Below are positions 33,025 through 35,175 of a stretch of DNA of 35,319 nucleotides, in pieces. The position numbers and the translations under genes were made by a program. Each line of letters begins with the position of its first letter. Position 1 is the first letter of the stretch. Below the pieces are notes generated by a model that saw only the letters and a list, made by a program, of their open reading frames with translations, did not search any database and was not told where the DNA came from. Source of the stretch: Candidatus Methylomirabilota bacterium (lineage in GTDB: Bacteria; Methylomirabilota; Methylomirabilia; Methylomirabilales; Methylomirabilaceae); contig JAGWQH010000003.1 in assembly GCA_028870115.1 (NCBI GenBank), positions 1-35,319 of the forward strand. The letters are read 5' to 3'.

Positions 33025-33102
33025 TGGTGCGCCCGGGCAGATTTGAACTGCCGGCCTTTTGCTCCGCAGGCAAACGCTCTATCCGGGCTGAGCTACGGGC
33101 GC
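33025..33102 (-). tRNA. tRNA-Arg, anticodon GCG
   Basis: The minus strand folds into a complete cloverleaf: acceptor GCGCCCG/CGGGCGC, D-stem GCTC/GAGC, anticodon stem TTTGC/GCAAA around the loop CTGCGGA (anticodon GCG, reading CGC), a five-base variable loop AGGCC, T-stem GGCAG/CTGCC with loop TTCAAAT, discriminator A and an encoded CCA. It lies just after the YchF-like gene, convergent with it, and marks the border to the accessory region on the right. Confidence 0.95.
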
Positions 33103-33128
33103 AAAGCAACTGCGGCAGGAACGGGCCG

Positions 33129-33168
33129 ACTGTACCATGACCGCCGTGGGCGGTCAAGCCGCTTGACC
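33129..33168 (-). promoter_or_regulatory. tRNA-Arg promoter overlapped by a perfect palindrome
   Basis: On the minus strand TTGACC (33157-33152), 17 bases and TACAGT (33134-33129), placing the start about 20 bases before the tRNA. The -35 box forms one end of the palindrome GGTCAAGC-C-GCTTGACC (33152-33168), eight base pairs per arm with one central base. Confidence 0.55.
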
Positions 33169-33270
33169 GTGTTTGTAGGGCCGGAATCTGAGTCAGGTGG
33201 CAGTTGCAAGAGCCAGGATTTTGTTCTTCACTGCCTCAGGTAGTGGTCATCGGGTAGGCCAAGGGCAGCA

Positions 33271-33359
33271 GTCTAACGTACTGCTCACCGGCGGCACAGA
33301 CCACTGCAAGCCAAGCTCATGGCTACCCGGCTGCGGTCTGGTGAAGCGGATCATTCGAC
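33271..33359 (-). repeat. attC-like recombination site following brnA
   Basis: Read on the minus strand this 89-base segment has the arrangement of an integron attC site. It runs GTCGAAT (R''-like), GCTTCACC (L''), an imperfect hairpin core including GACCGCAGCC and GGCTTGCAGTGGTC, GGTGAGCAG (L'), and GTTAGAC (R', matching GTTRRRY). L'' and L' are complementary apart from one extra base, a feature of attC sites; R'' is degenerate. It begins 11 bases after the brnA stop, where a cassette's attC belongs. Confidence 0.5.
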
Positions 33360-33370
33360 AAGATGTGCCT

Positions 33371-33586
33371 CTACTCGATCACCTCTGCAAGGTGCTTATC
33401 CGTAAGAATCAGCTTGTTGACCACCGTCGAGATGTCGGTCTTTTTCTTCCGGGCAATGCGCTGTACAAAGGTCATCGCTTCTTGGTCGAGGTACACGGGA
33501 AGACTGAGCTTCAGGCCTGACCTGTAAAACTTGCCCCGAACACCCTTCGAAAAGTCGTATTCTTTTCTCATCTCCTCATTTGCCAT
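33371..33586 (-). CDS. BrnA-like antitoxin
   Basis: A 71-residue protein (FSKGVRGKFYRSGLKLSLPV, YLDQEAMTFVQRIARKKKTD, ISTVVNKLILTDKHLAEVIE) that looks like the ribbon-helix-helix antitoxins paired with BrnT (DUF497) toxins: a basic N-terminus, a beta strand KLSLPVYL and two helices for dimerisation. In this family the antitoxin binds the toxin and represses its own operon. ATG 33586 follows GAGAGGGGG. The start overlaps the end of the restored brnT frame by 11 bases, the normal toxin-first arrangement. Because of the toxin frameshift, the antitoxin frame is also continuous with the toxin's N-terminal frame. The antitoxin itself looks intact. Confidence 0.75.
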   Translation of the reverse strand: MANEEMRKEYDFSKGVRGKFYRSGLKLSLPVYLDQEAMTFVQRIARKKKTDISTVVNKLILTDKHLAEVIE

Positions 33587-33883
33587 ACTGCCCCCTCTCG
33601 CGCCTGGTGGCTCTCCGACACATGATGATCCGCACTCTCGGCACCGCCCCTCGTCGATTGGCTGGAATGTGTGGCACACCACGAGAATCCGTCCAGTCGA
33701 AGAAAACCCGAGCGTGATCCATCGATCTTCCTGTTCGCTATGCTCTTCATCGTACAGTGAGATGGCCCGAGGATCAAGGAACACCGTAGCTGCCTCCTCG
33801 AACGGCACGCCGTGCTTGCGTTGGTTGACCCTTCTCTTCTCGGGGTCCCATTCGAACTCGTAGACTATGGTAGCATCTGCCAT
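33576..33883 (-). pseudogene. BrnT (DUF497) ribonuclease toxin, frameshifted
   Basis: The N-terminal part reads as a BrnT toxin: VYEFEWDPEKRRVNQRKHGV, PFEEAATVFLDPRAIS, EHSEQEDRWITLGFSSTGR, ILVVCHTFQPIDE. After Glu the frame diverges into a Cys/Gly-rich sequence unlike the family. The expected C-terminus (GAVPRVRIIMCRRATRRERG, then QYGK and stop at 33578-33576) is in another frame. Adding one G to the four-G run at 33650-33647 joins the two parts. BrnT toxins are RNases that cut mRNA and halt growth, so loss of the C-terminal helix should inactivate it. The start is ATG 33883 with GAGG seven bases upstream. A base-calling error in the G run cannot be excluded. Confidence 0.7.
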
Positions 33884-33947
33884 TCCCACGCCTCGCCGAT
33901 CTCACGCATTTGCCATCATTTACCATGCGCTTCGTACCAATGCAACT

Positions 33948-34039
33948 CTACCCTCCGCAAGGCACCGTTCGGTAGGCGAACGGTAGCAACACCCTTCAGC
34001 TTGCGCTATCGACCTCGACCATACGCCTTGCGAAGGTAG
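33948..34039. repeat. Nested inverted repeats upstream of the brnT-like gene
   Basis: Outer arms CTACCCTCCGCAAGGC (33948-33963) and GCCTTGCGAAGGTAG (34025-34039) pair almost completely. Directly inside the left arm a perfect eight-base hairpin ACCGTTCG/CGAACGGT (33964-33984) has a five-base loop. A further inverted repeat, TTGAGCCA/TGGCTCAA, lies at 34089-34130. The 33884-34164 gap shows no gene, so these are its main content; they could be regulatory or remnants of recombination sites. Confidence 0.55.
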
Positions 34040-34164
34040 GAGCGCACCAGAATTGCTGGGCCTGACGCGATAACCTCAACGTCTGCAATTGAGCCAACGA
34101 CCTCAAGCCTCATCGGCCCCTGTGGCTCAAGCAGTGTTCACCAGGCAAGCAGCCATGCGCAGCA

Positions 34165-34245
34165 GTCTAACGAGGCTACGGATCAGCGGCGGCACCCAGC
34201 CCTGCTGCAAGCTGCAACCCATGTCCCCAGACTGTTTTGTTACCT
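34165..34245 (-). repeat. Second attC-like site, following the 295-residue gene
   Basis: On the minus strand the segment ends in GTTAGAC followed by TGCTGC, identical over 13 bases to the end of the site at 33271-33359, and shares inner blocks (GTGCCGCCG and GCTTGCAG). About 80 bases upstream is AGGTAAC as a possible opposite core. I could not draw a convincing L''/L' pairing, so this is weaker than the first site. It lies 43 bases after the end of the preceding gene. Confidence 0.4.
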
Positions 34246-34287
34246 ATCTCCCCGGCCGGTCACTACTTCGATTCCTACACAATGACG

Positions 34288-35175
34288 TCAGCGGGCTAGC
34301 AAGCTTCCTGGATCTGAAAGACGACGCTGACAAAACTGAGTGGCATCAGGGCATACAACTTCCTTTGGCGCCACGACATCTTCGTTCACCGTCCAAATCA
34401 TTCTGAACTCGTCTTTGACCTCGGAAGTATTCTCTTTCAAGAAATAGATCTCATCCGAAATCTCGTCGTCGATTCGCTTTGCGAGTTGCGCGTTCATTCT
34501 GTAAAAGGACTCCTCCACCGCACGTTGGTCCTTGACCTTCGCCGCCTCAAGCAGCTCCGATGGATCGGGCGGGATCGACTGCAGTGTGTTACGTACAACG
34601 GAGCGTTCGGGCAAATATTTGCATCGGCCGAACTTGTACGATAGAAAGCCGGAAAGGCTGGATGATATTGCCTTGCAAAAACCTGGTACATCAACTATCC
34701 GAAAATAGTCATCCGTTCCGAAGTGTCGCATGAGTGCGGAGCTCTCGGACAGACTAGTACAAAGGATGTAGCTTCTACTTCCCGACGTTTGAATGCCTGT
34801 CAACGCATATAAACCATCCGTGATGTGAAAGTTTCCTTTTCCTTCCCGCTCGTCCCGACGACTGAGATCTTCGTGAGTTCTACACTTTTCATATGTGCTC
34901 AACATCAGCCGACCAGCGACAAAGAAATCGTTGATCCACTTTGCATCCAGGTACCGTATCGGAATCATGCGCTTTATGTTGAAACTGGGTGCTCTCGCGT
35001 GGAGACTAACGATCACAACTTTGATACCCCTGAGTGCCACGCCGCCCCATGGCCTTAAGCGGTTCTTCCACCACGCCCAGAGTTCTCTCCGCCGCTTGTC
35101 CGGCCATGCCCAAAAGCCTGCGTACTTCCGTATCCGGGCGATGAGTGCGCGTTGGTCCTCCTCCAGACGTGACAC
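34288..35175 (-). CDS. Hypothetical protein of unknown function in the cassette region
   Basis: I do not recognise this 295-residue protein. The segment MIPIRYLDAKWINDFFVAGR, LMLSTYEKCRTHEDLSRRDE, REGKGN resembles uncharacterised proteins in which a short N-terminal strand is followed by an E-D-x(3)-R-D-x-x-E-G signature; some relatives are reported near phage-defence or mobile genes, but no activity is established. A cysteine occurs in YILCTSLSESSALMRHFG, and the rest is mixed helix and strand. The first 68 residues are unusually rich in Trp and Arg; the family-like part starts at ATG 34971, so the true start may be there rather than at GTG 35175. Neither has a strong ribosome-binding site. 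Base composition seems less GC-rich than the core genes. The 144 bases from 35176 to the window end hold nothing I can identify. Confidence 0.6.
   Translation of the reverse strand: MSRLEEDQRALIARIRKYAGFWAWPDKRRRELWAWWKNRLRPWGGVALRGIKVVIVSLHARAPSFNIKRMIPIRYLDAKWINDFFVAGRLMLSTYEKCRTHEDLSRRDEREGKGNFHITDGLYALTGIQTSGSRSYILCTSLSESSALMRHFGTDDYFRIVDVPGFCKAISSSLSGFLSYKFGRCKYLPERSVVRNTLQSIPPDPSELLEAAKVKDQRAVEESFYRMNAQLAKRIDDEISDEIYFLKENTSEVKDEFRMIWTVNEDVVAPKEVVCPDATQFCQRRLSDPGSLLAR

Follow-up and report, generated by a model that had tools for sequence, protein, structure and literature searches.

Probable remnants of a chromosomal integron cassette array next to a tRNA-Arg gene in a Methylomirabilota genome

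Introduction

Near one end of a contig from a Methylomirabilota genome, two sites on the minus strand share a 13-base sequence, which raises the question whether this region is, or once was, part of an integron. The integron integrase IntI captures gene cassettes by recombining the folded bottom strand of their attC sites, and the sequence past the R′ core of an attC is part of the next cassette. An earlier note on this DNA had suggested that the two sites are attC-like and that the 894 bases between them form a single excisable cassette carrying a toxin-antitoxin pair, in an array that has no integrase nearby and might be a relic or a CALIN-type cluster.

The window (the whole stretch of DNA that was analysed, 35,319 nucleotides) is the entire contig C3 of a MAG with 122 contigs, a size of 2.8 Mb and an estimated completeness of 99.99%. 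The YchF-type GTPase that flanks the array shows 85-91% identity to records of Candidatus Methylomirabilis (NC10, Methylomirabilota). The anatomy of the array was read by comparing it with congeners.

Results

Layout of the array

Read along the minus strand, the array is bounded by the end of a transposase-type insertion sequence (35319-35176), at which the contig stops and of which a 99% identical copy is found on contig C28 of the same genome. This insertion-sequence end is directly abutted by the first visible gene of the array, an ORF of 295 aa (34288-35175, minus strand). This ORF has no Pfam match over the cut-off and no NCBIfam match, and a homologue was found in none of the 147 other genomes, nor in plasmids. 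The solo end of a second insertion sequence (34262-34213) follows, then an attC-like half site with the core GTTAGAC, the relic of a gene (gene 1; 34113-33921), the junction 33921/33920 and a BrnT/antitoxin module (33920-33371). Behind the module lie an attC site (33359-33271), the leader of a gene1-gene2 cassette fused to the tail of gene 2, and tRNA-Arg(GCG) (33025-33102, minus strand), a conserved gene that borders the array on its 3′ side.

Neither IntI nor attI is in view in the window. The contig ends about 2 kb upstream of the attC, and both the IntI belonging to this array and its attI would be expected beyond that point. The segment upstream of tRNA-Arg(GCG) differs from species to species. 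The genome G005 contains a gene1-gene2 pair (L083 6631-6935) that bears a copy of the sequence located directly upstream of tRNA-Arg in other species; no tRNA follows this copy in G005, and its counterpart in the window is 33128-33236.

The site at 33271-33359 is an attC

The attC of the BrnT/antitoxin cassette (33271-33359, minus strand) is matched over its full length by a covariance model, R1. The 89-base element described earlier, with pairing between L″ and L′ and one extra base in L″, is indeed present: R″ is GTCGAAT (33359-33353), L″ lies at about 33348-33340, L′ at about 33289-33283, and R′ is GTTAGAC (33277-33271). The R′ core conforms to GTTRRRY, and R″ departs from the consensus; five of seven positions are complementary between R″ and R′, compared with six of seven for the R″ GTCGAAC of genome G001. 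A core with a complementary R″, the pairing of L″ and L′ with the extra base and the overall profile place this element among the attC sites.

The R1 model combines 17 sites from Methylomirabilota genomes other than the window's with seven class 1 plasmid attCs; neither the window's genome nor its BrnT module contributed a site. The phylum sites were chosen by our own structural scan, and many of them are confirmed by an independent class 1 model; as a control, R1 recovered attCs throughout known class 1 arrays. With filters off, R1 gave the element 32.1 bits and an E-value of 6.4e-7, and no other R1 match in the 35-kb window was significant, the runner-up reaching 12.5 bits; these E-values are rough. 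The orthologue in G001 receives 39.4 bits and that in G005 27.6 bits, and the three sites were aligned. The stricter and independent covariance model R2, made from 13 class 1 sites only, also ranks this element first in the window, at 10.4 bits and an E-value of 1.4, which is not significant; R2 is significant at many attCs of the phylum, several of them in the window's genome.

A scan that considers pairing only is uninformative for this site, because 21 of 40 shuffles reach its score, and is informative for clear sites. Box sequence and structure jointly separate the attC from background, as the R1 E-value shows; pairing by itself does not. As an empirical bound, 16 R1 matches of at least 32.1 bits were obtained in 40 genomes of other families (about 112 Mb) with a subset of the candidates scored, and most of these sit in multi-hit genomes, which probably have real arrays. 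The whole-genome search, whose first look scores only some candidates, left the attC of the window unlisted. Folding of both window sites as single-stranded DNA gave no stability signal (z-scores from -0.65 to 1.66), and an Rfam search of the window found the tRNA alone to be significant and no attC family.

The shared 13-mer and the half site at 34171

The sequence GTTAGACTGCTGC is found on the minus strand at 33277-33265 and 34171-34159, exactly where the earlier note had placed it, and no other exact copy is present in the genome. Because 59 different 13-mers recur at least twice within the window, the shared 13-mer by itself is weak evidence. More than chance would give is the extended homology that flanks the two cores on either side; across some 80 bp it amounts to 72% (E = 1.2e-4 in a search of the entire genome). 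That this homology runs downstream of the core was puzzling at first, because the sequence behind R′ belongs to the next cassette. Each copy of the 13-mer consists of the core GTTAGAC and the first six bases of the following cassette, which is of the gene 1 type behind the copy at 34159-34171, and homology to contig C50 of the same genome and to G005 starts at the 34171 core. The comparison with congeners resolves the puzzle: both 13-mers mark the 5′ ends of copies of one gene1-gene2 cassette family.

Of the two proposed attC-like sites, the one at 33271-33359 is borne out by the covariance match; the site at 34171 yielded no covariance match even with filters off and is a half site. It spans 34165-34212 (minus strand) and comprises R′, an L′-like arm and an inner stem resembling that of 33271-33359, and it lacks R″ and L″; we regard it as a putative attC remnant. 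Tested alone, this half received no score, and the test is uninformative because the corresponding half of the good site scores nothing either. The place of the 5′ half is taken by the solo end of a dispersed insertion sequence (34213-34262, minus strand), copies of which, about 50 bp long and 83-93% identical, are spread over many genomes in the class. The dispersed insertion-sequence end is located inside an attC in G035 (L057, upstream of 1501), between L′ and R′, and it is apparently likewise placed within an attC at the second window site.

Two cassette remnants in the 894-bp interval

The relic of gene 1 (33921-34113, minus strand) contains an in-frame stop, is cut off at 33921 and keeps about the first three quarters of the gene, with 87% identity over 253 bp to contig C50. 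The intact homologue on C50 codes for 79 aa (1524-1763) and is followed by gene 2, the pair covering C50:1524-1996. Homology to the BrnT/antitoxin cassette starts at 33920, so that the relic and the BrnT module meet at an abrupt junction. The 894-bp interval is a fusion of a truncated gene1-type cassette with a BrnT/antitoxin cassette, and the comparison with relatives overturns the proposal of one excisable cassette. A remnant of a second gene1-gene2 cassette lies at 33193-33270 (minus strand), where a deletion has joined the 5′ leader to the final dozen codons of gene 2.

Within the module, brnT is frameshifted into the ORF at the antitoxin position, giving one frame of 172 aa (33371-33889, minus strand). 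Its residues 14-76 match PF04365 (E = 8.3e-21) over model positions 1-61 of 77, and the brnT frame is broken afterwards, near its 3′ end. A working toxin-antitoxin cargo, as originally envisaged, is doubtful because of this frameshift. The putative antitoxin of 71 aa in the BrnA position (33371-33586, minus strand) is conserved in at least five congeners and has no Pfam match and no match to a BrnA model. Both ORFs are intact and in separate frames in G001. Most of brnT is deleted in G005 (L084 4560-4885), which retains the antitoxin ORF and hence has an orphan antitoxin in a cassette.

The module of BrnT, antitoxin and attC is found at a different place in G005. There the homology ends at the GTT of the core, which continues as GTTGAGC in G005 versus GTTAGAC in the window. 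On the 5′ side of the module, G005 and G004 have a start at GTTCGAC in common, the point where an attC-like match in G004 (18.8 bits) ends. In G006 (L096), the gene1-gene2 pair is located among four attC-like sites on the same strand. Module boundaries at GTT together with changed neighbours are what one expects of cassettes.

Integron remnants elsewhere in the genome

Altogether, about 20 further attC-like matches were found on some fifteen contigs of the window's genome, several of them in same-strand clusters. The search for intI that the earlier note had recommended returned decayed tails only: at least six C-terminal tails of IntI are present, most with stops or frame breaks, and no IntI exceeds the curated cut-off in this MAG. 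Integrase matches on C104 and C119, with 31-37% identity to IntI, were judged by similarity to be XerC/XerD-type recombinases and were rejected as IntI. Three of the IntI tails keep the arrangement in which attCs lie 3′ of intI on the same strand, and the tail on C50 does not. This C50 remnant (L082 2118-2333) lies downstream of the gene1-gene2 copy, on the side of the array opposite to the norm of the phylum.

A complete integron has intI beside its array, which is not the case in the window. CALINs are called where at least two attCs less than 4 kb apart occur without intI. The window has one full attC, and clusters of this kind are present on other contigs of the genome, for example C55, C103 and C74.

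Integrons across the class

IntI over the curated cut-off was present in 34 of 148 genomes searched, mostly from the class of the window. An intact IntI is encoded in G013, which belongs to the same genus as the window's genome (L132, G013:C37:5082-6026), and matches the solved integron integrase IntI4 with E = 2e-94. Of 60 genomes of the class, 56 gave attC matches; of 40 genomes from outside, 6 did. A near-complete IntI with an attC match close by is present at 19 loci (including L132, L137, L140, L142 and L143). At every one of them the attCs share the strand of intI and follow its 3′ end, the first site being 253-1309 bp away, and this same-strand, 3′ arrangement in relatives from the phylum is that of a "reverse integron". 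The attCs of G009 are inverted. At three attC sites of the phylum GTTRRRY is replaced by the R′ core GTTCGAC or GTTCGGC (L099 8766-8832, L143 14217-14289, L115 3754-3825).

Discussion

We conclude, with a probability of roughly 0.88, that this region is what decay has left of the 3′ end of a cassette array in a chromosomal integron whose IntI is gone from the genome. The suggestion of integron-derived cassettes in a relic or CALIN-like setting has thereby held up: it agrees with the attC match, the module in new contexts, the attC-like matches and IntI remnants of the genome and the intact systems of relatives. The array was probably of the "reverse" type used in the phylum.

The two sites might also be diverged copies of a gene leader that arose by chance or by a simple segmental duplication, their pairing being a coincidence. 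Homology passing through the core into the downstream leader is what a duplicated gene would show, 13-mers recur often in the window and pairing alone does not rise above shuffles; yet the common leader is itself explained by two copies of one cassette, and neither chance nor duplication accounts for the covariance match, for the end of the BrnT module homology at the core in G005 or for the attC and IntI evidence across genome and class. The attC match and the GTT boundaries of the module in relatives largely refute this explanation, which we consider very improbable. Even less credence is due to a genomic island inserted at tRNA-Arg by a phage-type integrase. The array does adjoin tRNA-Arg(GCG), a neighbourhood that the earlier note had found remarkable, and the region upstream of the tRNA varies between species. 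The tRNA is not an integration target, since the array is found at its 5′ side and the window contains no second copy of its 3′ end; moreover, no island integrase is seen in the window and no repeat of the region touches the tRNA.

The cassettes would still be mobile if an IntI located elsewhere in the genome, undetected or unassembled, excised the BrnT/antitoxin cassette in trans, as in a live CALIN. The boxes of the attC are kept, an intact IntI exists in the same genus and a MAG of 122 contigs could be missing a gene; against this, no IntI exceeds the cut-off in a genome whose completeness is estimated at 99.99%, and the pieces of IntI that are present are broken tails. In addition, excision of the 894 bp would lack a proper second attC because the upstream partner is a half site. 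We regard trans-acting excision as unlikely, and a decayed array without its integrase remains our preferred reading.

The array probably arose as IntI inserted cassettes successively, an activity that would lie in the past at this locus. Erosion of the array, probably after the loss of the integrase, involved several events whose order we can only infer: two gene1-gene2 cassette copies were mostly deleted, an insertion-sequence end took over half of the upstream attC, brnT acquired its frameshift and another insertion sequence came to bound the array. Without an integrase from elsewhere, the remaining attC is probably inactive today.

The closest likeness is to the reverse integrons of Treponema (T. 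denticola), in which intI and cassettes are on one strand and the attCs 3′ of intI (PMC7691350); T. phagedenis has lost the integrase while attC remnants and cassettes persist (PMC3607928). Treponema belongs to another phylum, and the window's genome differs in the scatter of many attC-like matches and IntI tails among several contigs and in the insertion sequences that have cut the array. Like CALINs, which are thought to be degraded integrons, the region combines an attC and cassette genes without IntI (IntegronFinder 2.0, PMC9024848), but its single full attC is below the default threshold of two. The window attC shares with class 1 plasmid attCs the order R″-spacer-L″-loop-L′-spacer-R′, the extra L″ base, GAC after L″ and the GTTRRRY core, whereas its loop is unrelated, its R″ is degenerate, its context is chromosomal and there is no resistance cargo. 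The cargo resembles the type II system BrnT/BrnA in that a toxin domain of the BrnT RNase family precedes a small gene in the antitoxin position, but brnT carries a frameshift in the window, most of it is deleted in G005, and the antitoxin ORF is without a Pfam match.

A list of integron-bearing phyla from 2021 omits Methylomirabilota (PMC8618304). In the open-access full-text literature we found no integron report for Methylomirabilis, NC10, Methylomirabilota or Rokubacteria, and earlier reports may exist. As decayed integrons go, the array described here is unremarkable; of greater interest as a lead are the reverse integrons of the class as a whole. With some reservation, we favour the view that the reverse-type chromosomal integrons of Methylomirabilota, among them those of the methane-oxidising NC10 bacteria, form an old lineage that has been passed down throughout the class and has decayed time and again in Methylomirabilis, leaving scattered attC relics; the core variant GTTCGRC would be part of this lineage. 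The known range of reverse integrons is widened by attC matches in nearly every genome of the class searched and a true IntI in many, and the loss of integrons can be followed within one genus, which has an intact integrase in G013 as well as decayed systems.
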